DNA of 64,000 nt, taken from positions 6,743,358-6,807,357 of the forward strand of contig JAJEKV010000052.1 of the NCBI GenBank assembly GCA_021234155.1, given 5' to 3'. Positions 42,661 through 62,190 of the stretch are shown here, piece after piece (the first letter of the stretch is position 1; the number at the start of each line of letters is the position of its first letter). Made by a program: the position numbers and the translations under genes. Origin of the DNA: Isoetes taiwanensis (taxonomy: Eukaryota > Streptophyta > Lycopodiopsida > Isoetales > Isoetaceae). Under the pieces are notes generated by a model. The model saw nothing but the letters and a program-made list of their open reading frames with translations, was not told where the DNA came from and ran no database searches.

Positions 42661-44125
42661 CATTTTTTCATCGTATTTGTGACTGTAGGACCAGCCAACT
42701 ACAAACAATCTTCCCTCCATCAGAGGGGAGGGATCACGTTTTGTTCATGTAGTTTATGTCCGAGTGCACTTTAGAGGTGTTTTTTGGACCAATTTATGTA
42801 CGTATATGGATGGAAGGGGAGTGCTTTCATATGTACTTAGGGTGAGTTGCATATGAAGGGGTTCAAATTTGGCTTTAATCCATATACAAGGGGTGTTTTT
42901 TCTACTATAAGAATGCAGATATAACTGCATCCCCCAGCTTATCATGCTCCTGTTGATCTGAAACTTGGCACTTAGATCAACCTCAGAGGATTCTACATGG
43001 CTAGAATCTCTAGGTTGCTTAAGACAACCAATCTTGGTGCAAAATTTGCAAAAAAAAGGACTAATTACTTTAGGATCCCTAAAGCAAAATGAGATAATTG
43101 CAGTTAGACATGAATATATCGAGTTCTACTGATCTTTTTTAAATGATTTTTGAAGGAGCAATAAAAAAAAAAGGTTCGATGAGATGTGGGGAAAAACTTG
43201 GCTCAATTTGAATCTGGAATGACTGAGAAGATCGGATTCAAATTTGGCCAGTGCACTTCCCTGAGACCAAAAAAAAAGTCTGTACACCCAAATGAGGATA
43301 TGTTGAGTTTTACTAAGCATTTTTTTCTGACTTTTGGAAAATTATCAGAGAAAAGTTGTAGGAACGTCTCAAAAAAACTTGGCCAATTTGGAACTCAGAT
43401 GGTGAAGAAAAATGAGTCAAAGTTGATCGAAAATCCTGTCAGTGAACTGTCACAGAAAAATAGCAAGCAAATTTATGTATCTTGAGTTTTATAAGGGGTT
43501 TTTGCATGATTTCAACTGGCACTGGCCTGAATAGGGTCTAGGATTGTGTGCAAAAGATAAAATGTTGGTTTGGATCACTGGAAACATCTCTTATAATAAT
43601 GTTTTGGGAAGTAGAAGTTGCAAACATAATGGTTTCAAACTTGACATGGAATTTTCATTGATATGAAGGTCAAATAATCATAATGACGATATGTTCATAC
43701 TATGCAAATCATGTACACAACAAAAGTCATGTAGAAAGTAATGTAAGAAAGATTTTTAGCCTTAGAAATTTATCTCAAACTGAGGAATGTACAGATAAAT
43801 TTAGGATCAACTTCAAAACATGTTCAGCATGCAAATAGAGTGTCTTCAAATGTCTGGATCTTCAATTAAAACCATTACCCTTGTTATGGTTCAAGTTTTT
43901 GGTGATCATTAATTTAGTGTATGTTTTTAGCATTCCTGAGTTTAGGAGGAGCAGGAAATAAAAAATAGGTAGGCTCCAGTTCCATATCAAATTCCGTTGC
44001 AGAAGATAGGTTTCTTACCCCTTTAGAGGGCAGCCCTTCATCAATACACCGTCTACTTTCAGAAGGTGGTCACTATGGATGATGCTCATCTCCCTAGCCC
44101 GGCTTATACCGTGGCAATGGAGCCA
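42661..44125. other. No gene recognised; diverged repeats
   Basis: Around 43125-43440 a unit of roughly 190 bp is repeated in diverged form: A-run, AAAAACTTGG(C), CAATTTG(A/G)A, ACT(C/G)AGA. The rest shows no coding motif. Confidence 0.4.
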
Positions 44126-44129
44126 CAAC

Positions 44130-44893
44130 ACCTCACACCACGAACTCCCAGAGTCCCCCACGACTGATGGGATTACTCTGGATGGGATTAGTCTCCCAAA
44201 GACTAACCAGGAAGCCTTCCTCTTGATTCTTTCCTAAATAATCGAATAGCCTTTGCAACACAAAGGCCAATGGATTATCTCCCAGAGATAATTCTTTTGA
44301 TGCAAGCTCACTCTTGCAATCAGTATTGCATACTGCAATCAAATGCAATTCACGCTTTTGTATTCCAAATACAAGTGAATCTTTTGCAATTACTTGCAAG
44401 CAATTAGCCCGGATTGCTTCTGTTATCAAGCCACCCCCAAGGTGCTCCAGAGACCAAAACTGTGCTAAAAAAGGTCGGATTGGGCTGGAGAATACCAAAG
44501 CCTCATTGGCTGATCTGTAACAGAGATAAAATAGCAATTTTGAAGCCTTTCCAATTTCGTGGATCCTTCCAAATCGCCTCAGACAGCTTAAATAGGTCTG
44601 ATTTCCTCTGCTACATGCTTTTCGATGCAATTCTGTCCACTCCCAGGTGGTCTCCATGCCCTGGCAGGTGGATCGGCACCTAAGGGCGTCCAACCAGCCG
44701 TGTATCAGGGAAATTAGAAAAGCTCCAAGCTTTTCTTAGCTAATGTTTATTCAATAAACATTAAAAGTTGTGCCCCTAGGGCGAACTTTGCTAGCCCCAG
44801 AATGTCCCCATAGCCCGATTACGAGTTTATGGTCCATCGCATAGCCACTATGCCTGGCATGCTATCGACGGTACCTCCATGCTTATGGATATC
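44130..44893 (-). mobile_element. Probable 3' LTR remainder of the older minus-strand Ty3 element
   Basis: Sequence left of the younger element's TSD is continuous with 57389-57432, which is the start of an LTR (TGTTACATG on the minus strand) just after a polypurine tract AAAGGAGGGAGGAAT. The younger element therefore sits inside this LTR. A near-perfect stem AATGTTTATT-C-AATAAACATT lies at about 44742-44762. The left boundary is uncertain. Confidence 0.5.
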
Positions 44894-46514
44894 TGTGACG
44901 TTCCAAGTATTTATACGGTATAAGTATAAATATGTTGACACGTCACCAAGGATACATACGCCACATGGGGTATGGGAACCTAGGTGGTTCACTTAAAAAG
45001 GATTAAATTAGCTATGCTAATTTAATTATTGACAATAATAACCTATAATTAAGGAACTAATATTTAAAAACCATAATTAAGCTAATTATGGTTTGGGAAG
45101 GCGCCACGTGGCCACCCTCGATTGGCTAGCATGATAATGCTAATTGGGGTCAATAGGGTGGATCACCACCCCCATACCAGCCACAACTCACCTTGAGCGT
45201 TGGAGCCACCCTTGTGACCGAAATGAAGCCACCTTGAGCAATTGGACGCCACCCTTCTCACACAAGTGGAACACCAAGATCAAGAAGATGGAGATCCCCA
45301 ATGACAATGGGTCGTCGAAAAACATGTGGGTGGCTAGTGTAGTTGTGAATTCTAGGATAAGCTCTGCTGGGCACCTGTTTGGGTTGTTGGTCTATTCTCT
45401 CTGTGGTTTACTCGTAGGAACTAACCCTTGATTGTAAAGGTAGGTTCTCTATATATTTCGATTCCGGTTCTCGCTTGTAATGGATGGATTGGTGGTTGTT
45501 AGCCTAGTGTTACCTCGAAATGGGGATTAAGGGGGTAGAGACCTCGGGAGGCTATTTATTGTAGTATGCTCCTAGATAGAGCCCCCGTAGATATCCCGTT
45601 AAATGCGGCTCGTGCACAAGAGCCCACCGGGTCATAGATGCTATGGACCGGCTTAGCACCAGATAAGGAACACAAGTGGTGAAGTGGTTGGCGGGTCCCG
45701 CACTAACATAAAAGGCTCCAGGACTCCTATAGTGAGCTAGGCGATAGCCGGGCCACGTAGAGGGCCGGGTATGGGTCCGACACTCGGGTGGGAAGGTGTG
45801 ATCCGTGATGGAGCACCTTGCACTTTGAGTAGATTTAGGGCGCAGTAAGCCTGCACGGATGCGGGGTCGCCGATGCGGCACGTATTCTCTAGCTCGCCCA
45901 TGGAACCACCGCGGATTCCGAAGGGGACGCTTCCCCGACCCGCCTCATCGGACGGGACTTCATGAACCCCGGAGTAGGCTTAGCAGGGTGATGCCTCAAG
46001 CCTACGTCTCCGGAAGGCTATAGCGACACCATAGCGTGAATTGACCCATCTGCAAAGTGTGCACAGGAGGGGCGGATGGAGTGGACAACCCTAGCCAATG
46101 TTCTATGCCAGCCAACGCCATGTCAAGATTCGGGTCCGGCCGATCTCTTGAGGCCTAGCCATCAGTCGATCCTCACTAGAGTCTGAGCCGGGGTAGAACC
46201 ATGGGGTTGGGGTGTTTTCTTAGGTTTAGATGCATATTCTTTGCCGTTGGTATTTGGATGGATATGCCACCCTTCGTGGTGGTTATTTATATGTGATTTA
46301 TGCTGTGTGCTAACCCTTGTATTCACGCCTGCGACGTAGGAGCCCACCGGGGCGTGGGCGAATGACCCCTTAGGTGTCCTTCTTTCGGGCATCCCATTAT
46401 AGATGGCCCGGAATAGACGGAGGGAGCCTCGCCATGGCGAAGTTGGTCGCCATGGGAGGAGAAAGTCCCCTGTATGTATACCGGCCGGGGTCGATATGTT
46501 CGGGGAGTCGCCGG
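44894..46514 (+). repeat. 5' LTR
   Basis: Paired with 55751-57383. It contains TATA-like GTATAAGTATAAATATG near the start and CTCTATATATTTCG near 45447. The 3' edge reads GGGGAGTCGCCGG before the primer-binding site, whereas the 3' LTR ends GGGAGCGTCACA, so the 5' LTR edge has changed. Differences between the two LTRs are frequent short gaps and CG/TG changes. Confidence 0.9.
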
Positions 46515-46527
46515 TGGTATCAGAGCC
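46515..46527 (+). other. Primer-binding site
   Basis: TGGTATCAGAGCC is the standard complement of the initiator tRNA-Met 3' end used by plant Ty3 and Ty1 elements. Confidence 0.9.
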
Positions 46528-47221
46528 GTGATTTCGGTTACTCGAAATCATAGCACTGACCAAACCCTAACTCGCTAGTTCGGTAGTTAGGAGAGAGAAT
46601 TAAGCAAGAGTGATTGTTTAAGTCTTTCATGTTTGAATTGGTGCTAGGTTAAGGTAATAGACTGTAATTTCTAAGGAAGTCTAGGCTGCCTGGAGGACCC
46701 AAGTTTCGAGGAGCCATAACTTTTTGTAGGTAGCTCGGATGAAGGCGAAAACGGCTCCAATGGATCGGGCACCTCTCAAATACCCTAGGGGGCACGTCTC
46801 CCGAGGCAAAACGGATAACGGGCCGCCGAAAAACAAAAAGGGGCGCCGAGGTATCCGAGGGCGTTTCTTTTCGAAAATAAAACGCGTATAAACACGTCGG
46901 CGTCTCTGATACTTGGCCGCACAGATTTTTTATACGCGCCTGTTTGAAAATTTTTAAAAAAAAAAATATATTTTTTAAATTTTAATAAAAAGTCAAAAGT
47001 TAAAATTTGAATTTTGAAGTGTCTTTTCGGGCGTGTGTTTCTTTTGAGCGCCTTTTTCCGCCATATAGCCCGGGACCTAAGCTTCGCGATCCGCCATAGC
47101 CGACCTTGACGCCTTCCTTGCACCTGCCCTACACCCCGGTGCCCTCGATTACCCCTTCGCGCCGTCCCGCCTTGCTTGAGCGCCTCCTTTTTCCTTGTCC
47201 CCTGTTTGTTCCCTACCAAGT

Positions 47222-48127
47222 ACGACATGCCGCGCTTCAAGCCGACCAGATCCAAGAAACCAATGTATATCGGTTGTTTCTTCGCCTTAGTCGAAGCATC
47301 CGGGCCGAGGAAGACCCTATAATAGATACCATTCTTAACCTTCTTGTCAAACACTTTGTCGAGGGCCGACGAGTCCCCTACCCTATCTTCCACTTCAACG
47401 AGCGCTTCCTCCTCAAGTTGAATGAAGCCGGTCAGGATTACACTCTCGTGGAGCAGCGGACCATGCTTGGGCTGTGGTTAAGTTTTATCCTCGCCAGACC
47501 GGATGACGACCGGGCAGAGCTTAGTCGGAATGAAGCCCGTGAGGATCATGCATCTTTGCGAGAGTGGAAGACTTACACCGAGATAGCCGGTGCTCCACCG
47601 CATATATAAGAATGGAACGTTTTTATTATTTGGGGAAAGGTCGTATACTTACGTACCGGGAATACTTTAATCTCCCTACCTTCTCTTGGAATGAAGATCT
47701 TAACAGCTTTATCTTTGAGAATGTCCCGCCAAGGTTTAGTCAAGGCCACCCGAACTGCGGGGAGGACATATGAACCGGCCACCGATATCATACCGAGATT
47801 GCCCCTGCATTTGGGCGTTTGGAGAGAGAGGCCAGGGCTGAAGAACGAGAGCGGCTCCTAAAGGAAGGCGAAGACTCCCATGGCCAGCAAAGTGAGCACG
47901 AGCAGGAGGAGCAGCCAGGCCATCAGCAGGAGGAGCAGCGGCAGAATTTTGATGATAGACAGCAGGACCTAGGTGCGGCTCAGAACGTTGTGTCCCAGAC
48001 AAACCCTGTTGACATGGACCCATCGGCAAACCCACAGCAATCGACCGGGCCGGGTAACCGGAGACTGAAAAGGACCAAATCTAGACCGGTTCGGGGTGGG
48101 GTGCACTACAAGACCCGGACCGAATAG
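47222..48127 (+). pseudogene. Accessory ORF 1 of the Ty3 element, frameshifted
   Basis: A frame starting at ATG 47227 (MPRFKPTRSKKPMYIGCFF) shifts after about 20 codons. It continues as RLSRSIRAEEDPIIDTI ... LNEAGQDYTLVEQRTMLGL to a stop at 47607-47609. After further breaks come ERFYYLGKGRILTYREYF and a hydrophilic Glu/Gln-rich linker (47819-48127). The end is the basic RRLKRTKSRPVRGGVHYKTR, then TAG. This TAG directly abuts the ATG of the histone ORF. I recognise no domain in the folded part. If the TAG was once CAG, this region would be the N-terminal part of a fusion with the histone. Confidence 0.5.
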
Positions 48128-48546
48128 ATGCCGCTGACGCCAAAAGAAGACATCGCTCGTAGAAGGGAGTTGATCGTAGAGCGCACAAAGCATCCTTCGA
48201 CAGGAGGTAAATCCATTCCGTCGCTCAAGGCGACCCTTAAGCCACGGAAGCCCCACAGGTTCCGACCTGGCACGGTAGCTCTTCGGGAGATACGCAAGTA
48301 TCAGAAGACTACCGAGCCATTGATCCGCCGGCTTCCTTTCCAAATGGACTGTATGAGATCGCTCAAAAATTCAAGACCGACTTGCGGTTTCAAGCCTTTG
48401 CGGTCCTTGCATTACAAGAGGCTGCCGAGGCGTACCTGATTGAGCTTTTGAGTGACGCCAACTTGTGCGCCATACATGCGAAGAGGGTCACTATTATGCC
48501 CAAGGACCTTCACCGGCATTTAAGGATCCGAGGGGAATTTAGGTGA
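48128..48546 (+). pseudogene. Histone H3-like gene inside the Ty3 retrotransposon (one frameshift)
   Basis: The histone fold is unmistakable: [28 protein letters not shown], then in the next frame [42 protein letters not shown] and a final RIRGEF. The two parts are offset by one missing base within 48344-48354, at the position of the RLVR codons of H3. Total length is about 139 residues, close to 135 for H3. The core is of canonical H3 type: no CENH3-like loop-1 insertion. The tail is rebuilt: about 18 extra residues ([17 protein letters not shown]) precede [12 protein letters not shown]9 is absent, the STGGK with K14 remains, and the K27-S28 segment is missing. It replaces or supplements host H3 only by inference. 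Confidence 0.9.
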
Positions 48547-48720
48547 TGACACAACCGTTTTTTTTTTTTTTTTTTCTCAAAAAAAAAAAAAAAAAATTTG
48601 TAACTTATCCATGTACTAGTCCCATTTTTGGGGTTGTGAATATAAAAACATTTTTTTTTTTGGAAATATAATATTAAGTAAATAAAAATTTTAATAATAA
48701 TTTTGGGAAACGTGCCAAAA
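48547..48720. other. Poly-T / poly-A spacer inside the retrotransposon
   Basis: A T-run of about 19 (48558-48576) and an A-run of about 18 (48580-48597) can pair as a hairpin, followed by AT-rich DNA. It separates the histone gene from the next ORF. Confidence 0.8.
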
Positions 48721-48722
48721 AG

Positions 48723-48729
48723 TATAAAA
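48723..48729 (+). promoter_or_regulatory. Internal TATA box of accessory ORF 2
   Basis: TATAAAA lies in a plant-promoter-like context (GTATAAAACCCC, then C/T-rich leader) 80 bp before the ATG at 48809. It suggests a transcription unit independent of the LTR. Confidence 0.5.
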
Positions 48730-48808
48730 CCCCTTTTTGGCCATTAGGGTTTCATTCTTCCTTCTAGTTCCAGCGCCTTCTTCCCCTTCCTGTGCGCCTT
48801 CACTCCTC

Positions 48809-50200
48809 ATGGCTCGCCCAACCCTTCAGCAGTGGTATGTAGACGGAGAGCATTGGGACCCTGCGGTTCCCTTTGATCTTCTTCACCCCTACCCCGCTCC
48901 CGCCAGGTAGATCTTATCTCCAACATGCAGCCCACCCACATTATTACGCCTTCCTTCGGGGTTCTATGGAGAGGAGATTGTGCCTGCATGCGTTGGTAAT
49001 GATGACGATGAGCAGCTTTACCTCGACTTCCACACCTTACACCAGATGTTAGGGGGTGATGATCATGCCCGTAACGTCATCAAGGGCATCAGACGGCGAG
49101 GGACTGACCTCCCTATTGCCACAATAGATCGGGAAACTTGTTTTGAGGCCCGATTTGCACTGGCCATCATTATGGACCAGTACATAGAGGATGAGGAGAT
49201 CCCTGCCGAGCGTTCTTCTACACCTCTACCTCCTGACCCAGAAGATGACGAAGTCGTTGATGAGCAGGATTTTGTGAGATGGAAGGAGCTTGCCACAGAA
49301 GCTCCTGCCAGCAGGCAGCAGGCCCTAAAACTTGAAGGGTTAAACCTTCTCCCTACAGTACTCCTGAATGATCAAGAGTACCTGATCCTTGACGATATTA
49401 TGTGGGCGTACCATGTTCTTACTGGGGTCCGCCGCAGGAAAGTAGAGGTTCTCTATGATCTTGCGGAATATTGCCAAGATGACTTCATCGACTTCACTAC
49501 TCCAGTGGTGCAACCTACACAGGTAGAGAGCCTATTGGCATATCGGCCCGAGGAACAAGAGCCCGTTGAGACTCTTCTGTCGCTTCGCCAGTACTTGCTA
49601 GCTGAAACCCCCCAGCCTCCGGAAGAGCAATTTGCGGCCCCGACACGGTCTCTCCTTCGAGATCCGCCTCTGCAAATCACTATGGGCGAGGGGGATCAAG
49701 ACGAGGAAGACCTTTGGGACACCAAGGTCAGCCTTAAGGATGAGAGAGAAGAAGAAGACGAAGGGAAGCTCCCCATCGACTTGGAGAAGGAAGCTGAGAC
49801 CTCCACCGACCCTCAAGTTAGGGCAATGGGCAACCATATGGCCCGATTCTTTCTCTCAGCTTTCCGCCAAGGAGAGGTGCTGTTCTTCTCCGAGAATTTA
49901 GGCCCATTTTCTGAAGCTTCTTGGTGGGCGCTCCGAGCCATATCTACTTCAGCGGGCCATAAGAAGATTGATTATCGTGTCACCACTATTACTCTGGTCC
50001 GTAGAGATTTGGCTATAGCAGCGTTGGGAGACGTGGCGGGCTGTACTAGCATGCGCCTCCTTGTCGCGGCACCTTTGGCTACCTGTCTACCACCTGAGGC
50101 AGCAGCTCAAGCCGCCCTCTCTGCTAGTCCCAGCGCCACTTTGATGCGTTATCGTCCACCTCCTCAGCCAATGGATGAAGATGAGGGATTCAGCTCCTAA
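48809..50200 (+). CDS. Accessory ORF 2 of the Ty3 element (about 463 residues, one in-frame TAG)
   Basis: Begins MARPTLQQWYVDGEHWDPAV. After 33 codons an in-frame TAG (48908-48910) interrupts it, and the same frame then stays open to 50200. The region after the TAG has EEIVPACVGNDDDEQLYLDF and EARFALAIIMDQYIEDEE. Acidic, Pro-rich linkers follow, and then a C-terminal half with RFFLSAFRQGEVLFFSENLG and an Ala-rich stretch. I recognise no family, catalytic motif or zinc site. Long, well-kept frames in an element of this age imply selection. The TAG could be a C-to-T change from CAG, or it could lie in a short intron (CCAG/GTAG donor). Confidence 0.6.
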
Positions 50201-50341
50201 ATTATTGTGTTATGAATTTTGCCTTTGAAATCCTTGTTGTTTAAAATATGGTTATTACTCGTGATGTGATTTCTCCTTATTGTATCAAGTCCAATACATA
50301 ATGCCAATACAACTTTTTTTTGAATAAGCCTCTTCCATGAC

Positions 50342-50859
50342 AAGTTATTAAGCCTCCTGGAAATGTTAGTATTATATACTCATTCCGCCCTTTTGCAGAA
50401 GAAACGCTCGCGGAGTACGAAGATAGGATAACATCCCAGATAAGGAGAGATGAACAGGGACCTCCACAACAGGACTATGGGGAACGATACAACGAGTATC
50501 CTGAACGGGCAGTTGACGATGAGATAGCGGAGCTTAGGGTGCCGGAACAACCTTATGATCCTGACAAGGGGATGGAAATAGTTACTCTTCTTCGAGAACG
50601 TGCTTACGATGATCTGAAATGGACTCTTTCCCGTACTTGGGATTATTGGAATATGACCCCACATGAGGCTTTTGAGGATGCTAATGATCATCTCTGGCAA
50701 ATCTTCTACGCACTGCGAAGGCTCTTCAACCTTCTTATTATTAGCCCCACTTGGGATTATCAACCCGTTATTATCCAGGCTTGGGCACGTTACAAGCTCG
50801 TCAGAGCTGTGCGTGAGAGTGTGCGCTATGCCGTCATGTATCCCTACGCAAACCCTTAA
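50342..50859 (+). CDS. Accessory ORF 3 of the Ty3 element
   Basis: Open from about 50342 (no early ATG; first internal ATG at 50572) to TAA at 50857-50859. A TTTTGCAG acceptor near 50398 suggests that it is a 3' exon. Contains ETLAEYEDRITSQIRRDEQG, DDLKWTLSRTWDYWNM and a basic helical end (ARYKLVRAVRESVRYAV). It could be an N-terminal gag extension by splicing, or a separate product. No recognised domain. Confidence 0.5.
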
Positions 50860-51093
50860 GCCGCATTTTCCAGTTTTGTGTGTTCCTATGCTTCACTATG
50901 ACTAGGAAAATGGCCTGTATCAGGCCCATGTATGTATTATATAACTATAAGTCATAATTACTGTCAGTATCAAGCTCTTGGATGTAACCGTTACTTCACT
51001 TGTAATTAAAATTTTTCCGTGGGTTTTTGCGTGTTCACTTTGTTCTCGACACGACTTAAAAATGACCTTGTATGACACTTATTGTCGCTGTAA

Positions 51094-54000
51094 ATGTTCT
51101 TATATCATCTTATGTTTAATATAGACGGGGCACGCAACGCCGCTTGGCAGCCACCCTCAAATGCAAGTCGATTAACACCAGAACAAGAATTGATGCTGAT
51201 GAAAAGACAGTTAGGCGAATTACAGGCCTACGTCTTGCATGCTAACCCACCACAGCATGTACAACAGGATGCACCGGAGTTACCTCCGTTGCCGCCTAGT
51301 CCACCTGCACAGCAGCCGTCCCCACCACGAACCAGTCCTGTACCCGTGCGAAAGAGGTCCCACTCTAAACGCCGACGGAGCTCCTCCAGGGACAATGCCA
51401 CCTCTTCAAAATCTGCCACTTCAGTGTCAACTGAATCATCTGCATCATCTGGCGACCATACGAAACGCCGAGATAAGGAGTACCGCAAGACGGTTGATAC
51501 GGCCATAACTAGCATATGGAAGAATCGCAAGTTGGCCCAGTTTGATGGGAAGTCTAGAGGCGGATTAAATGCCGAATCCTGGTTAGATGAAATGAAGGAG
51601 TTCGGAAGGTCTTATGGCATGGCAGAAAGGGATACCGGAAAGGTTGCCACCACCAACCTTACCGGAGCTGCCCGTATATGGTGGAAGGGCTATGCCCGAG
51701 CCAAACACTTGGACAGGAGCAGATGCAAATTCAGAAAGTTTGCCAAGGCCTTCAAGTCGCATTATGTGCCCCGTGCACACAAATGCCAACAGATCCAAAC
51801 TTTTTACAGGTTGGAGCAGAAAAGTATGTCCGTACAGGCATACACGGATGAGTATATGCGCCTAAGGCTGTATGTACCCGGTATGAATGAGAAAAGAGCA
51901 GTGGAGGGTTATATTGAGGGATTGGCACCCTCGATCAAACGGATGGTTAAAGCCATAGATCCGAAATCAGTTGCAGAGGCCGAGGCTAAAGCGTTGAGCC
52001 TCGAGGAGGACATACCCAGGGCTCAGTATTCGCGCCCTGCTACTTACTCGCAGCCACGGCCATCCACACCGTACAAACCCCGCTCTCCAAGCCCGGGGCC
52101 CTCTCAGCAGAGCACTTACGCTCGCCAGGAGAAGAAAGTCGCTTTTAGCACGCCAGAAAAGCAGAACAATGCTGGCAAGGACGTTCGGAACCTCTTACAG
52201 TCCATTCCTAAAGAGGCCAGAGAACAGCTCCGCCGCGACAAGGCATGCTACAGGTGTATGAGGCCTGGGCACTTCATGCAAAATTGCCCATATGTTACCC
52301 AGACTGCCCAGTTGGCTATGGCCGACCTCGACTGGGATGAGCTTGAGGCAACACTACCGGCAGAGGAGGACGCTCCCGACTACATTCATGGTGCGTCTCA
52401 TATCCTTGCAGCTATAGAAACTGGCAATGCTGAAAGTCAGCCTGCTGTCATTTCTACCATAGGCCAGGTAGACAGTAAGCCTTTCATCATTCTTATGGAC
52501 ACGGGAAGTACCCATAATTTTGCTTCCCCTAGAATGGCCCAGGTCCTACAATTGGAAACCCTAAGGTCACGACCGAGGCCTGTCACTTTAGCCAGTGGTA
52601 AGGTTAGGCATACTCATGGTCGTCGCATCAATCTAAAGATGCAGTTGCCAGGCGCACCAGTTGCTATGGGCGCCGAGCTAATGGATATTGGCAAATATGA
52701 CCTCATTGTTGGGATGGAATTCTTGGCATCTGCAAAAGCCAACATAGACTGCGAGAAGAGAGAAGTTACCTTCAACGCGGCAAATGGAGCCCGCGTAACT
52801 ATAAAAGGTGAACCATTCAACCCTATCATGCAGTCTATGTCCATCCGACAGTTAGATAGAGCTATAAGCAAGCAAAAGCTCCTCTGCCTTATCAGACTTG
52901 CTTCCATTGAGTCAGACCCTAAACAGAAGCAAGTAATTGACACCTTACCGGAGGGGATCGCCTACCTTATCCGACAATTTTGTGATCTCTTCCCAGACGA
53001 AATCCAGAAGCTTCCTCCTTTTAGAGGGGTAGAATGTGAGATAGCTTTAGAGCCAGGTACTAAGCCTACCAGCAAGGCCCCGTACCGTATGAGTCTCCCA
53101 GAGTTGGCAGAGCTTAAAAAGCAACTTCAAGAGCTACTAAACCTAGGTTTTATTCGACCTAGCGTCTCGCCCTTTGGCGCCCCTATTCTTTTTGTAAAGA
53201 AAAAGGACGGCTCCTTGAGAATGTGTATTGATTATCGGCAACTCAACAAGCATACCATCAAGAATCGCTATGCTTTGCCAAGGGCAGATGATCTAATGGA
53301 CCAGTTGCAAGGGGCCAAGTATTTTTCGAAGATTGATCTTCGCTCCGGATATCATCAGATAAGGATTAAAGAGGAGGACATTCATAAATCTGCTTTTTGC
53401 ACTAGATATGGGCATTATGAGTTTACCGTTATGCCTTTCGGATTAACTAATGCCCCCACAACGTTTATGCGGTTAATGAACGATGTTTTCCGACAATACT
53501 TGGATGATTTTGTTGTCATTTTCTTTGACGACATTCTCATCTACAGTAAGACTCTAGAAGAGCATGAGAAACATCTTAAATTGGCCCTACAAAAGTTAAG
53601 ATGTCATCAGCTTTTTGCCAAGTTCTCTAAGTGCAAGTTTGCCACTCCAAAGGTTGACTATTTGGGCCATATCATTTCAAGCAATGGGAATTGCTCTGAG
53701 ATCCAAAGAAAAATAGAGGTAAGGGAATGGCCTATTCGAAAAATGTCTCCGAGGTCCGAAGTTTCTTGGGATTAGCAGGATATTACCGAAAATTTGTAAA
53801 GGATTTTGCAAAGATTGCAGTCCCTCTTACAAATCTTACCAAGCATGAGAAGGTAAAGGATTGGATGGAGCACTGGAAGACTAAGGTTCAGGGAAGTTTC
53901 CAGCAGCTTAAAGATGCCTTAACCTCAGCACCCGTTCTCACGTTGCCCGATCCTGATAAGGATAAACTAGTGGCCACAGATGCCAGTAAAATTGCCACTG

Positions 54001-55853
54001 GTGGGGTTCTAATGCAGGAGGGGAGGGTTATTGCTTATGATTCAAAGAAGATGAATGAGACAGAACAACGATATCCTACCCATGACCAGGAATTGCTGGC
54101 TGTAGTTCGCGCTTTGCGAATATGGAGACACTACCTCCTTGGTAGAAGATTCCAGTTGGACACGGATCACCAAAGTCTCCGATATTTAACCACCCAACCC
54201 AATCTCAACCTCCGGCAGAGGAGATGGATGGAATTTCTTGAGGAATATGATTTTGAGATCATGTATAAGCCTGGGAAGCACAATGTGGTTGCGGATGCAT
54301 TATCACGCCATCCCTTGGTAACCCGGACTCATTGTAATGCAATTTCGACACTCACAAGTGAGTTTGGCAAACAGATAGAACAGACTTTGGCCACGGATCC
54401 TGAGTTCTGTGACATTTGGAGTAGTCTCAATAAGGAGGCACACACAGATAGAGAGCGTGACGCTTTCCGGTCATATAAGAAAGAGGGCAATTTGTTGTAT
54501 CACAAGGACAAGTTGTGTGTACCTCATACTTCCGGGGTGCGTAAGTTAATCCTCCATGACACGCACAACAGCCCTATAGCTGGACATGCGGGTTTTATGA
54601 AGACCTACTTTAAGATCCGCTCCAGTTATTTTTGGCCTTCAATGAAGAAGGACATTGCCAGGTACATCAAGCAGTGTCAAGTATGTCAGCAGACCAAGGC
54701 AGAACAATTAAGGACTCCAGGAGAATTGCAACCTTTGGATGTGCCCAACGCTAAGTGGGAAGTGATAACCATGGATTTCATTGTGGGCCTTCCACGTACT
54801 CTTCGTGGATATGATGCGTTAATGGTAGTGGTCGACAAATTGTCGAAAATGGCTCATTTCTTGCCATGTCGTACCACGGACACCGCCTTTGATACTGCTC
54901 TGCTTTTTGCAAAGGAGATCTTCAGATTGCACGGAATGCCACGGGTAATTGTATCTGACAGGGATCCCAAATTTGTAAGTGCATTTTGGAAAGATTTCTT
55001 CACCACCATCCAGACCAAGCTTGCTATGAGTACCGCATATCATCCTCAGACAGATGGTCAGACAGAGCGTACCAATCGTATCATAGAGGATATGCTACGA
55101 AGTTATGTGTGGAGTAAGCAATCCCAATGGGCTGACTATATTTATCTAGTAGAGTTTGCCTATAACAGTATGAAACAGGAGTCTTCCAGAATGTCTCCTT
55201 TCATGATAAATTATGGTTATCAATGCCTTACTCCTGACACATGGCACAACCCCGTGTCGAAAGTGGAGGTTTCTCAACAACTCCTCCTGGAGATGCAAGC
55301 TTTGGTCGAGGAAGTACGTGGTTACTTGTTAGCTGCACGCAGTCGTCAGAAAAGTGTAGCGGATAAACACAGAACCCCACGAATCTTCCAAATGGGCGAA
55401 TCAGTTTGGCTTAAAATCAAGGTAAAACAAGCCAAGCTTAAAATTGGTAACTGCAAGAAGTTAGCGCCCAGATGGGCAGGACCATTCAAAATCACCGAGC
55501 GTATTGGAGAACAGGCATATCGCTTGGATCTGCCACCCCGTTTGAAGATCCACAAGGTCTTCCACGTAAGTCTTCTGAAACAGCACACCCCTGATCCAGA
55601 GGAGGTTTTGGAAACCCCAACCCTCCTCGAAATGACAGAGGAGCAGCTCGAGATAGTGCCTGAAGCTCTCCTTGACCGGGCTTATAAACAGACTCGGAGG
55701 ACGCAAAAGTTGCAATACCTGGTCAAGTGGAAGCACTTGCCGGTGGAGGATGTGACGTTCCAAGTATTTATACGGTATAAGTATAAATATGTTGACACGT
55801 CACCAAGGATACATACGCCACATGGGGTATGGGAACCTAGGTGGTTCACTTAA
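51094..55853 (+). pseudogene. Ty3/gypsy gag-pol polyprotein with chromodomain, one frameshift
   Basis: The first frame (51094-53775) holds a Pro/Ser-rich start and a gag core ([31 protein letters not shown]). It also has a zinc knuckle [14 protein letters not shown] at about residue 385, the protease [10 protein letters not shown] at about 467 and reverse transcriptase with FFDDILIYS at about 809. A shift near 53729 moves to the second frame (to 55853). This frame has RNase H (LVATDASKIATGG), the integrase His/Cys finger (CQVCQQTK), the DDE residues in ITMDFIVGLP, VSDRDPKFVS and HPQTDGQTERTN, and a chromodomain start (YLVKWKHLPVEDVTF). The 3' LTR begins inside the chromodomain at 55751, so its end is encoded by LTR sequence. 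Reverse transcribes the element RNA and inserts the cDNA. Confidence 0.93.
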
Positions 55854-57383
55854 AAAGGATTAAATTAGCTATGCTAATTTAATTATTGACAATAATAACC
55901 TATAATTAAGGAACTAATATTTAAAAACCATAATTAAGCTAATTATGGTTTGGGAAGGCGCCACGTGGCCACCCTCGATTGGCTAGCATGATAATGCTAA
56001 TTGGGGTCAATAGGGTGGATCACCACCCCCATACCAGCCACAACTCACCTTGAGCAGTGGAGCACCACCCTTGTGACCAGAGCTGAGCGCCACCTTGAGC
56101 AATTGGACGCCACCCTTCTCACACAAGTGGAACACCAAGATCAAGAAGATGGAGATCCCCAATGACAATGGGTCGAGCCGAAACACAGGTGGGTGGCTAG
56201 TGTAGTTGTGAATTCTAGGATAAGCGCCCCTGTTGGGCACCTGTTTGGGTTGTTGGTCTATTCTCTCTGTGTTTACTCGTAGGAACTAACCCTTGATTGT
56301 AAAGGTAGGTTCTCTATATATTTCGATTCTGGTTCTGCTTGTAATGGATGGATTGGTGGTTGTTAGCCTAGTGTTACTCTGGAAATGGGGGATTAAGGGG
56401 GGTAGAGACCTCAGAGGCTATTTATTGTAGTATGCTCCTAGATAGAGCCCTGTATTATCCCGTTAAATGCGGCCTGTGCACAAGAGCCTACCGGGTCATA
56501 GATGCTATGGACTGGCTTAGCACCAGATAAGGAACACAGTGGTGAAGTGGTTGGCGGGGTCCTGCACGAACATAAAAGGCTCCTGGGACTCCTATAGTGA
56601 GCTAGGCCTGATAGCCGGTCACGTAGAGGGCCGGGTATGGGTCTGACACTCCCTGGGTGGGAAGGTGTGATCCGTATGGAGCACCTTGCACTTTGAGTAG
56701 ATTTAGGGCGAGTAAGTCGGGTACGGATGCGGGGGTCGCTGATGCGGCACGTATTCTCTAGCTCGCCCATGGAACCACTGTGATTCTGGAAGGGGACGCT
56801 TCCCTGACCTGCCTCATCGGACGGGACTTCATGAACCCCGGAGTAGGCTTAGCAGGGTGATGCCTCAAGCCTACGTCTCCGGAAGGCTATAGCGACACCA
56901 TAGCGTGAATTGACCCATCTGCAAAGTGTACACAGGAGGGGCGGATGGAGTGGACAACCCTAGCCAATGTTCTATGCCAGCCAACGCCATGTCAAGATTC
57001 GGTCTGCTGATCTCTTGAGGCCTAGCCGTCAGTCGATCCTCACTAGAGTCTGAGCCGGGGTAGAACCATGGGGTTGGGGTGTTTTCTTAGGTTTAGATGC
57101 ATATTCTTTGCCGTTGGTATTTGGATGGATATGCCACCCTTCGTGGTGGTTATTTATATGTGATTTATGCTGTGTGCTAACCCTTGTATTCACGCTTCCG
57201 CGACGTAGGAGCCCCACTGAAGGCGTGGGCCGAATGACCCCTTCGTGTCCTTCTTTCGGGCATCCCATTATAGATGACCCGGAATAGACGGAGGGCCCTG
57301 CTCATGGCGAGTTGGTCGCCATGGGAGGGGAAAGTCCCCGTATGTATACGGCCGGGGGTCGTATATGTTCAGGGAGCGTCACA
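55751..57383 (+). repeat. 3' LTR
   Basis: Begins TGTGACGTTCC directly after GGTGGAGGA, a weak polypurine tract that is also coding. Ends GAGCGTCACA, followed by the ATATC duplication. The last 34 codons of the polyprotein lie in it. Confidence 0.92.
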
Positions 57384-57388
57384 ATATC

Positions 57389-60300
57389 CGTCAGGAGTCC
57401 GTAAAAACTGTCACCCCTGGAAGCACATGTAACAATTCCTCCCTCCTTTAAGACCTTGTCCTCAAGGTATTTTAATTAGTTCGGGTGAGGAAACTGTTGC
57501 ACGTACTCATCCGACTCCCATGTGGCATCCTCGGGAGTCTGGCCTCGCCACAAGACTAAATATTCTACAACATCTCTGTTGCGCAACTACCGAACTCTTT
57601 TATCCAAAAGAGGTTCTGGCGTTACAGAGGAGTTTAAGACTCTCAGGACTAACCACGTTATCTGTATCTAGTATAGCATGCTTTAGTTGACTTACATGAA
57701 ACACAGGATGGATCCCAAGGTCCTGTGGTAAGCTCAATTCATATGCCATTGGACCTGTTCTTTTCAAAAATTTAATGGGTCCGGCATATCGCGGGGTAAG
57801 CCTAGGCACCCGTCCTTTCACTACAGGTCGTAAACTATTTACCCTTAGTGACGAAGGATAGACCACTCTTAGAAAGACATAGTCTCCTTCCTTATAGGAG
57901 ACATCTCGTCTATGCTTATTAGCACTAGACTTATATCGATCCCGAGCCCCTTGCAAATTCAACTTGCATTGATGCAGTATCGCATCCATATCATGAAGCA
58001 TATTCACAGCTGCTTCTGCTTTGAGGTACTTGTGCATCCCAGCATAAGTTCTCGGGTTCCTACCTATTATAGCCACAAAAAGCGTCATGATACTCGTATG
58101 ATGGCTATTGTTGTAGGCAAATTCCAAATAGAGCAAATAATCCTCCCACTTAGATTGTTTTTCATGAACAAAACTTCTCAACATATCCTCCAGGATCATG
58201 TTGATTCTCTCAATTTGTCCATCGGTCTGCGGGTGATTCCCACTACTCATACAACCGCATGTAACCCCTTCATCAGTTCTCTCCAAAATTGGGTGAACTT
58301 GGTGTCCCTATCACTTATAATGGATAGTAGAAACCCGAATATTGGAAACACGTACTGCATGTAAGTTGCAGCTACGTTGAATCACGTAGCATCACCCCTT
58401 AGAGGTATAAACTTAACATACTTAGTCAAGCAATCAACCACTGCTAAGATCTGGGCATGTTGCTTAGCAGTTCAGAATAATGAGACTACAAAGTCCATAC
58501 TCACACATTCTCACCTCTCATTAGGTACTGGAATGGGTTGCAACAGGCCTGGGGTCTTGCCATGGTCAGCTTTCACAGCCTGACACACCAAACAATGTGA
58601 ATCCATCTGTTTCACTTGGTCTTGCAAACCCGGCTAATAATATTGCCTTTTAACCAGCTCATAGGTTTTCCATTCACCCCCATGCCCAGCTTGTGGGGTG
58701 TCATGATGCTCATGAATAATTGTTTCTCGCAATTCTTCCTACAAAGGAAAAATACAGTACAACCCTTCTTGCTTGGTCCACCAATCCCCAGTTTTGGTGA
58801 CTGCAGGGTCTTGTTGATCCTTTGTGTACGCATCCCTAATCCTCTGGAAAAGGTCATTCTCAATGATAGCAAGAGCATTTACATGCTTAATCCTTGATAA
58901 AGCATCAGCTACTGGGTTATTCTTCCCAGGCATATGCTCAATGATAAAATGAAATTTATGGAGAAAATTAAGCCATCTAGTCTGTCTAAAGCTAATCTCA
59001 ACGTGACTTTGCAAAAACCTCAATGGTTTATGATCGACTTGTGTGGTTCCTTATTTGTACCACTTCTCAAGTAATGCCTCCATGTTTTCAGAGCATGAAC
59101 TATTGCCAATAGCTCTTGCTCCTATGTTACATAATTCCTCTCAGCAGAATTAAGCTTTCGGCTTTCATAAACCATTACCCGACCTTGCTGCCTTAATACA
59201 GCCTCAACTGCTTGACCACAAGCATCGATATAAAACTCAAAGGATTCATTGAGATCGGGAGCCTTTAGTATGGGGCTACTAACCAACAACCTTTTGACAA
59301 GCTCAAAAGCTTCTTGTTGTGCTTTCTCCCATACATACTCATGATCTTTCTTCAAAAGATCCGTGAGTGGAGATACTACTTTTGAATATTTCGGCACAAA
59401 TTTTCTATAGTACGTAGCCAAACCCAGAAAACTTCTCAACTCGGAAACACATTCAGGTGGTAAGTGGTAGCCAGTCTTGCACTATTTGCACCTTGCTGAG
59501 ATCCGCTGACACTCCCTCCCCTGAAAAGATATGTCCAAGGTATGCAACCCTTTGCTTAAGAAAATCACACTTGGATATCTAGCATAAAGTTTCTGAGTTT
59601 GAAGAGTTTGCAATACTTGCTCCAAATGAGTAAAGTGCTCTTCTAACGTTTGTGAATACACAAGTATATCATCGAGCAACACCTCGACAAACTTATCTAA
59701 GTATTCCGAGATTACTTGATTCATCAACTTCATAAAGGTTGCGGGAGCATTTGTGAGATCAAACGGCATCACTAAGAACTCATAGTGCCTCTGATGAGTT
59801 CAAAGGCCGTCTTAGGTTCATCACCTTCCCGAATCCTAATTTGATAATATCCACTACGTAAATCAGTCTTAAAAAAATCATTTGGCTCCATCAAGTCGAT
59901 CTATAATGTCATCTATTCCAGGTAATGGATATCTATCCTTGATAGTTGCTTTGTTAAGAGCACGATCATCTATGCACATTCGCATAGTCTCATCTTTTTT
60001 CTTAACAATCAAAACTGGACTCGCAAAAGGCGACTTACTAGGCTTAATAAATCCCCTTGCAAGCAGTTCTCTAACTTGATGCTTAACTTCCTCTAACTCT
60101 AGAGAACTAAGACGATATGGAGCACGTACCATTGGCTTAATCCCTGGTTCAAGCACAATTTCATGCTCAACTCCCCGAGAATGTGGTGGCCCTTTCGGCA
60201 ACTCTTCTGGAACATGTCTTTAAATATTTCCAAAGGATTTTGTAATTCTTGATTGACATCTGAACCTAGTTCAATGTTTACATCCATAGATTACAAGACT

Positions 60301-61140
60301 TAACCATGTCATCACCAGGCATGATATACATCAAGAAAAAGCTACCTTTATTAACTTGAAAATATCGCTTTGCCTCAGTGGCAAACAACAATTTTCCAGG
60401 CCCCACATAAGATAAGCCATGGAGAGTAATTGTTTTCTTAGGTGAAATTTTGATCATTACAGTATGGGATGGCCATAAAATGATTGGCTGAGCTTTTTGC
60501 ACACTGGATTCCCAGAATCACATCATAGCGGTTTAGCTTAGCAATATCAAAATCAATGACCATAGAGACAGCATCACGGGTCTCCTTATCCACCAACTTC
60601 AACCGAACGCCCAGTGCTTGTTGATGATAGTGCTGAGTCTGGGACTCAGCCGCAGTCTCAATAACATAAGGAGGCACCTTGCTTAGGCTCAAGCCTAGTT
60701 CCTCTACCACATCTGCAGAAATAAAGTTGTGAGTACTGCCAGAATCAATCAAGACACTCAAGTCCTTACCATTGATCCTTCCTAACAACCTTATTGCATT
60801 ATCGGCATAAGCTTGTGTAGGACTTACCATATTCTCTCCATGACCAATCATCGATAATGATTTCACCTCAATCTCGCTCTTGGAGGTACTTGCTAAAACC
60901 TTCTTATCCTTCTGTGGCTTTGTACAATCCCGAGCATAATGCCCCACAATGCCACAGTTATAACATCCCTTGGATATTTTAGTTTTAGCACTAGCCTCCT
61001 TAGGATTATCCATCCGCTTTTCCTTAGCTGGATTTTTCTTTTGCTTTTTGGAAGGTGACCCAGTCTAAGAGGCACCCCCAATCCTCTTTGCCTTCCATTC
61101 AACAATTCTTTGGGCTTTACGGGATTCCTCCCTACCAACC
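57389..61140 (-). pseudogene. Older Ty3/gypsy chromovirus remnant
   Basis: Read leftward: a Lys-rich gag end and zinc knuckle CYNCGIVGHYARDC (about 60962-60921), protease LIDSGSTHNF, reverse transcriptase pieces (60201-59878; 59772-59482 with LLDDILVYS) and RNase H (59439-59122, 59023-58739). Then come an integrase end (58286-57600, with HPQTDGQIERIN) and a chromodomain (EYLVLWRGQTPEDATWE, about 57565-57515). A polypurine tract AAAGGAGGGAGGAAT and the LTR start TGTTACATG follow at 57447-57424. Many stops and shifts separate the pieces, and the integrase core is lost. It was split by the insertion at 44894-57383. The 5' LTR is not found. Confidence 0.88.
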
Positions 61141-61361
61141 AGTTTTCTAGCTGTTGATAAGTTAGGAGATGTCATCAAATGATAGCAAGTGTGCTCAATT
61201 CTTAGCAGTTGTGCTCAACTCTTCATGGATATTTATGTAAATAAGGGAGTCATGGGCGCATCAGAACAAAATAGTTCAATGGTTAAAAGGGTTAAAGATG
61301 CAACCATTGAACTTGTATATACATGACCAATTATTTAAGTTTATAAAGGTTCGAAATAAGG

Positions 61362-61402
61362 ATTCTAGGGAAAGGTCCTTATGCACAAATATCAACATCC
61401 GA
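61362..61402. repeat. 41-bp direct repeat, left copy
   Basis: ATTCTAGGGAAAGGTCCTTA and the following 21 bases recur exactly at 62532-62572, 1170 bp away. Confidence 0.95.
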
Positions 61403-61742
61403 AGTGAAGTGGTGTTCCATTGAGCTGAATGAAAAAATAGTACAATGACCCATGGGGAAACAAACTGATGAATCCCAAAATGAGTGAAGAGGGGAACAAA
61501 ATGATGAACCCCAATGGGTAAAAAAAACACAACCTCGGGTTAGACCACCCAACGTATAAGATAATTGTGTACAATGAGTACAGGCCCCCACAAAGAACAT
61601 CTAGAAGGCCGCTGTATTGTAATGCTCCCAAACTGCAACAACTGCAAAAAATCAGGTCGCGCTACCCATCCAAGCAGTGACTCAAATCCGCCCCGCTAAG
61701 ATACCGCTCCATGCGTCCCACCTGGCCACTGGTATAAAAAAC

Positions 61743-62190
61743 AGCCACATGCACATCAGAGAGCTCCAAACTGCAAGACCAAACCACATGTGATTGTCAA
61801 CTGTGTTAGAAGCCATCTACGGGCCAAGAGTAAGCAAGCTACAAAGTGGGACTAAAAATACAAGAGCACAATATCAAAATGGAAAAGATGATCCATGAGG
61901 ATCCCCGGAAACCACGAGGCTACGCCGAGATAGGGAAATGTAGGCTCGACCCAGATGCATAAAGAAAGCAGCTTCATGCACATCAGTGAGCTCCACACTG
62001 CAAGACCGAACCATATGCGATTATCAAATGTGTTAGAAGCCATCCACGGGCCAAAAGTCACCAAACTATAAAGTCGGAATAGAAATACAAGAGCATAATA
62101 TTGCAAATTGAAGAGATGATCCATAATGATCCCTGAAGCCACCGGCTACGCCGAGATAAGAAAAATATATATGTAGGCCCGACCCAGGGG
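61743..62190. repeat. About 230-bp tandem duplication
   Basis: Copies begin near 61743 and 61973. They share CATGCACATCAG(A/T)GAGCTCCA, GTGTTAGAAGCCATC(T/C)ACGG and GGCTACGCCGAGATA. Frames read across both are repeat by-products. Confidence 0.85.

Follow-up and report, generated by a model that had tools for sequence, protein, structure and literature searches.

In Ty3/gypsy chromoviruses of the Isoetes taiwanensis genome, a large element protein, ORF1, ends in a C-terminal histone H3 fold, and the H3 part of this protein has been under purifying selection between the subfamilies of the element. Between subfamilies, the H3 core combines near-saturated synonymous change (pS 0.77-0.94) with very little change of the protein (pN 0.06-0.12). 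The first-pass annotation had proposed such selection in parent lineages for a single H3-like segment in the window (the whole stretch of 64,000 nucleotides that was analysed), and these values bear it out. The copies compared were found through their H3 score, which biases estimates of conservation within a subfamily; selection of copies by score may lower the differences within subfamilies, but cannot produce near-saturated synonymous change with a near-unchanged protein between lineages.

A decayed chromovirus with an H3 core

The copy in the window (44894-57383) is a decayed Ty3/gypsy chromovirus that contains an H3 core, and all features of the element lie on the plus strand. It is flanked by the 5-bp target-site duplication (TSD) ATATC, read from the sequence at 44889-44893 (left copy, no strand assigned) and 57384-57388 (right copy). 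Alignment of LTR against LTR by blastn placed the 5' LTR at 44894-46513 and, together with reading of the sequence, the 3' LTR at 55751-57383, which ends in GTCACA directly before the right ATATC. Over an alignment of 1642 columns, 52 mismatches and 35 gap openings separate the two LTRs. The primer-binding site (PBS) TGGTATCAGAGC, which we take to be of the initiator-Met tRNA type, lies at 46515-46526, and in other copies it directly follows ...TCACA. LTRs with a short TSD and a tRNA-primed PBS are characters of a chromovirus, as is the order gag, protease, reverse transcriptase, RNase H and integrase, which was recovered in Pfam matches of the window ORFs. Matches to PF19259, PF03732, PF08284 and PF00078 exceeded their cut-offs across gag (Ty3 capsid), protease and reverse transcriptase (51094-53775), and those to PF17917, PF17921 and PF24626 did so across RNase H, integrase, an SH3-like domain and the start of a chromodomain (53700-55750, compared with copies L011 and L022). 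Scores for the integrase core (PF00665) and the chromodomain (PF00385) fell just below their cut-offs in the window, and the zinc knuckle was seen only as a match below cut-off.

Behind the integrase, the chromodomain stretch VKWKHLPVEDATW reads on by eye in L011 and L022, a further chromovirus character. The window chromodomain stops after VED, and its frame runs directly into the 3' LTR (55700-55853); the chromodomains of L011, L022 and L026 read on past this break. No clear polypurine tract was seen by eye within 55700-55853. Of the three cage residues, two are missing from the family's integrase chromodomain, LQYLVKWKHLPVEDATWVM, if the cage positions are, as we assume, those set by comparison with HP1. 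Adjoining the element, pieces of what may be another Ty3-like pol were seen by eye on the minus strand at 57600-59050.

Between the PBS and gag lies histone H3. This placement inside an LTR element had been claimed from the sequence alone, and the LTRs, the TSDs, the PBS and the domains from gag to integrase were all found. A phmmer search against PDB sequences identified 48241-48546 as H3 beyond chance (E 8e-25), and phmmer and tblastn together placed the core, from alphaN to the C-terminus, at 48254-48543. With an open-frame relative as tblastn query, the match is split between 48155-48343 (94%, frame +2) and 48337-48543 (86%, frame +1), which implies a frame change within the H3 core of the window copy. 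Upstream, alignment of ORF1 copies assigns 47804-48253 to a linker and a basic tail-like stretch that stands in place of the H3 tail (window frame 48128-48439). Before it, at 47227-47803, comes the element-specific N-terminal domain of ORF1, located by tblastn and broken in this copy into matches in two frames to an open-frame relative (47250-47606 and 47459-47803; 57-59%). Downstream lie ORF2 (48809-50200, by tblastn), which is conserved between subfamilies and has no known domain, and ORF3 (about 50362-50859), a conserved ORF between H3 and gag that encodes a short helical protein. The stretch 48812-50158 matches ORF2 of copy L013 at 77% in tblastn. The decay of the copy is seen in the ORF1 N-domain and H3, each of which lies in two frames, and in pol, which is divided between two ORFs. 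The first-pass description of an almost complete H3 holds for the core, with its one frame change, but the H3 is the C-terminal domain of the larger ORF1 and not a separate gene.

The H3-bearing family and its ORF1

We searched the whole genome (1,658,258,908 bases in 1,110 contigs) with the PF00125 profile and scored 150 of 8,705 first-look candidates, and all 150 exceeded the cut-off. Fifteen of the 150 match the profile from position 2 to 122, like full-length host H3, and the eight of these that were read are canonical H3, usual tail included. The remaining 135 matches begin further in, in open frames of up to 494 aa. Forty of these 135 loci were picked by hand and fetched, with a long open frame as the main criterion for the first 20, and element-type H3 was present in 40 of 40; because these loci were found through the H3 score, this count is no measure of H3 loss. 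Its occurrence at 40 other places makes H3 an integral part of a retrotransposon family that moves with the element, as had been supposed, and rules out a single chance insertion of a host retrocopy in the window copy only. Two further H3 stretches were met by chance, outside the score search: an open core on the minus strand at L020 and a decayed one (46%) at L025.

The counts given below use the 39 loci in which the H3 core was recognized by motif and which fall into four subfamilies, A (24), B (6), C (5) and D (4). Locus L042, one residue off the motif, was left out; it is an open element-type ORF1 with a 442-residue frame, subfamily C-like and with A107. A Pfam core histone match above cut-off, together with H3-type residues, identifies the encoded domain as histone H3. 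Among 20 long loci of about 10 kb each, H3 is present in all 20, the ORF1 N-domain upstream of it in 19, ORF2 in 18 and ORF3 in 10; a related gag lies downstream on the same strand in 17, and the PBS is found upstream of ORF1 in 14. Gag follows close behind ORF1 in L011 and L022, without ORF2 and ORF3, which implies that these two ORFs can be absent where H3 is kept. The gags of subfamily B diverge, with 34% identity to the window gag in L014 and 61-66% in L016 and L017, and this divergence suggests an exchange of modules between lineages. In one element copy, an ORF with the look of a LINE-type reverse transcriptase was seen by eye between ORF1 and ORF2 (L021:3799-5532).

ORF1 is open from its start codon in 15 of the 39 copies, with lengths of 394-459 residues. 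In these less decayed copies H3 forms the C-terminal domain, and it is fused to the rest of ORF1 wherever the frame is still open. The protein consists, in order, of an N-domain of ~200 residues, a variable Q-rich or coiled linker, a basic stretch and the H3 fold. PF00125 was tested on three open ORF1s, one each from subfamilies A, B and C, and matched the C-terminus of each with E-values of 1e-41 to 1e-43; outside H3, the N-domain gave no Pfam match above cut-off and no match in the PDB. Identity of ORF1 to the subfamily A reference L046 is 43-51% for the aligned members of B, C and D, compared to 65-89% for other members of A. A scan of viral contigs with the ORF1 alignment returned two distant H3-like loci, at 33-37%.

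The sequence in front of the core differs between elements and host. The host tail ARTKQTARKSTGGK stands exactly before the core in eight of eight host genes and in none of the 39 element ORFs, which have basic sequence of different make-up where the host tail with K4, K9 and K27 would be. The ARKS motif is absent in 34 of the 39 ORFs and occurs upstream of H3 in the other five (four of the five of subfamily C and one of the six of B), where it counts against an explanation by tail replacement; six of the 39 have at most 62 residues open before the core and hold little information on the tail. In subfamily D, ORF1 begins with MARTKGTKS in four of four loci (L041, L043, L020 and L028), near to the H3 start MARTKQTARKS, and this beginning may be a remnant, mimicry or chance.

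A second histone in ORF2, suggested by eye by an L2-alpha3 histone-fold look, was unsupported by Pfam (ORF2 of L013), by a PDB profile search and by a single-sequence model (pLDDT 36). Neither ORF2 nor ORF3 of L013 has a Pfam match; the one PDB match of ORF2 was not significant (E 0.92), the best match of ORF3 to PDB sequences had an E-value of 0.036, and the single-sequence model of ORF3 (pLDDT 54) gave no fold match at E<=0.001. A relationship between ORF1 and ORF2 was likewise rejected (hhalign probability 0.3%). With the PF15511 profile, which detects H4, 150 of 1,953 candidates were scored and 16 of the 150 matched; their open frames are 107-146 aa long, and the three of these 16 that were read are all ordinary H4. 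There was no sign of H4 amplification among the 150 scored candidates, a search in which weak relatives would be missed, and this implies that host H4 would be the partner of the ORF1 H3.

Selection, origin and residues of the element H3

Within the same ORF, the H3 fold has changed far less than the N-domain: among 15 full-length ORF1s, pN is 0.42-0.48 in the N-domain compared to 0.06-0.11 in H3, at similar pS. In the H3 tree that had been called for, a gene tree over 94 codons, one branch parts the 39 element H3s from the eight host H3s (support 100/99.7); synonymous sites are saturated, so this tree of 39 element and eight host sequences from this genome shows a separation and is not a dated tree. 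Residue 107 is A in 39 of 39 element H3s and T in eight of eight host genes. The one branch to host H3, the common A107 and the shared N-domain argue for a single capture: before the present subfamilies split, and most simply in one event, a Ty3/gypsy chromovirus would have acquired an H3 coding sequence and retained it at the C-terminal end of ORF1. The element core is without an intron, and so are the eight host H3 genes that were read; the missing intron is therefore no evidence for the route of capture.

The 94-residue core aligns to host H3 without a gap in 39 of 39 elements and is identical to host gene L004 at 77-84 of the 94 residues. Centromeric H3 (CENH3) has a divergent core and a longer loop 1, and the ungapped alignment excludes it as the identity of the element H3. 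K56, R69, R72, K79, R83, C110, H113, K115, R116, K122, D123, L126 and I130 are kept in all 39 elements, R49 and R63 in 38, and R42 in 32, with K in the other seven. The kept positions presumably cover the H4 face and the H3-H3' bundle of the nucleosome, together with most of the contacts to DNA. We take R42 to be a DNA contact as well, and its replacement by K in seven of 39 counts against a role in nucleosomes. Positions 41, 57, 60, 64, 86, 87, 89, 101-105, 107, 124 and 125 differ from all eight host genes in at least 10 of the 39 elements; 86, 87, 105 and 107 do so in 39, 102 in 38 and 89 in 35. The area of 86-90 and 102-107 includes what we take to be the surface read by H3 chaperones. Outside this patch, positions 41, 57, 60, 64, 124 and 125 vary in at least 13 of 39, which counts against a change confined to the patch.

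Possible roles and comparison with known systems

We propose that ORF1 is an element-encoded H3 variant, captured by a Ty3/gypsy chromovirus, with host H4 as its partner and with element sequence in place of the modifiable tail; judged from sequence comparisons, the chances that this proposal is right and that it is wrong seem to us evenly balanced. The histone fold of ORF1 would pair with host H4 and enter nucleosomes or H3-H4 complexes, and the element N-domain and basic linker would take the position of the host H3 tail. Nucleosomes on element DNA (incoming cDNA, new insertions or transcribed copies) would then be without the host K9 and K27 sites and could resist silencing, and the N-domain could recruit element or host factors. 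Among the possible benefits to the element, we judge evasion of tail-based silencing most likely and tethered integration next, with particle packaging and a chaperone decoy less likely. An extended form of the proposal, in which ORF1-H3 and host H4 would build an element-specific chromatin with a retrotransposon tail, unwritable by host K9/K27 silencing and read by the element's own cage-less chromodomain integrase, seems to us unlikely.

Tethering would work differently: ORF1 would be anchored in host nucleosomes by its H3 domain, to which the N-domain or the integrase chromodomain would bind, and integration would in this way be steered to chosen chromatin. To our knowledge, other plant chromoviruses whose chromodomains lack these cage residues have no H3, and we consider a tether possible but rather unlikely. 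The conserved N-domain of ORF1 is consistent with it, as is the integrase chromodomain without two of three cage residues, since this is the type (type II) whose partners are described as not identified in the available text of PMC6317226. As a guess, the ORF1 H3 could be the partner of the integrase chromodomain, and it is in this sense a candidate partner for type II chromodomains in general. ORF1-H3 might instead serve as a core protein, and not as a nucleosomal histone, by coating or compacting the RNA or cDNA of the element ahead of its entry into the nucleus or in the course of it. The location of ORF1 5' of gag and the basic stretch adjoining the H3 fold fit such a role; packaging would not require H3 specificity, however, and none of the 39 elements has changes at the residues that we take to form the H3-H3' bundle and the H4 face, with most DNA contacts likewise kept. 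We regard this role as improbable.

Slightly more doubtful still is a decoy or poison, in which free ORF1-H3 would sequester H3 chaperones, or silencing factors that bind tails, and thereby weaken host silencing generally. The near-universal changes at 86, 87, 89, 102, 105 and 107, in the presumed chaperone patch, and the tail-like start of ORF1 in subfamily D point in this direction, but a decoy does not need a near-invariant whole fold, and the changes extend beyond the patch. Finally, a host H3 retrocopy could have entered one element and been amplified as a passenger without function. ORF1 is broken in many copies, including that in the window, and capture followed by inactivation is known in fungal hAT elements (available text of PMC6710886). 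Against a passenger stands the low pN of H3 at near-saturated pS between four subfamilies, far below that of the N-domain of the same ORF; these values contradict the absence of function for the past of the family, and we consider a passenger very improbable, with recent relaxation the one form in which it could still hold.

In the conflict of genomes with mobile elements, core histones belong to the host. If the proposed H3 variant is real, a retrotransposon H3 without the silencing-mark tail would directly counter chromatin silencing, and ORF1 would be an H3 variant with a foreign tail that arose in nature. Our literature search, with subscription papers and preprints mostly or wholly outside its scope, turned up no histone encoded by an LTR retrotransposon, and the word 'histone' occurs 0 times in the main text, as available, of the I. 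taiwanensis (PMC8566536) and I. sinensis (PMC10541799) genome papers. As far as the accessible parts of the sources cited here go, a conserved H3 fusion in a retrotransposon was not found among the nearest known systems.

Centromeric H3 and long-tailed H3 variants resemble ORF1 in that a long N-terminal region, unrelated to histones, precedes their H3 fold; they differ in that the Isoetes core is ungapped against canonical host H3 over 94 residues and is encoded by a retrotransposon. Viral histones, in the parts of the cited papers that were available, are likewise core histones encoded by a parasite: a bracovirus H4 reportedly enters the nucleosomes of the host and changes expression via its N-terminal tail (PMC5423620), nudivirus Orf1, a 1111-residue protein of unknown function, ends in an H4-H3 doublet, and histones of giant viruses have been described (both PMC9145170). 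These are divergent histones or H4 from DNA viruses, whereas the Isoetes retroelement has a nearly canonical single H3 fold. Capture of AlkB by orchid Ty3/gypsy elements (PMC9289625, available text) is similar in that an extra host-derived domain became fixed in a Ty3/gypsy ORF, but AlkB is an RNA demethylase and not a histone. The captured domains named there are AlkB, CHROMO, PMD, AIR1, G-patch, KOW, ArgoL2 and B3, with no histone among these.

Fungal hAT DNA transposons, according to the available text of two papers, also carry and amplify an H3-like coding sequence, such as H3L of Pyrenophora tritici-repentis (PMC3538342) and the H3 of Pseudocercospora fijiensis and relatives (PMC6710886). 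A hAT-borne H3L, which would come with a hAT transposase and terminal inverted repeats, was rejected for the window, where the element has LTRs and encodes reverse transcriptase and integrase; no inverted-repeat pairs of at least 60 bases were found in 44000-62000. In the fungi, the carrier is a DNA transposon with H3 as a separate ORF, present in tens to hundreds of copies. The Pyrenophora H3Ls have insertions in the tail and a partly variable fold, for which the authors suggest drift (PMC3538342), and the H3 copies of P. fijiensis were inactivated by RIP (PMC6710886). By contrast, the Isoetes family consists of retrotransposons in which H3 is fused to an element domain and its fold has been kept by selection across deep subfamilies.
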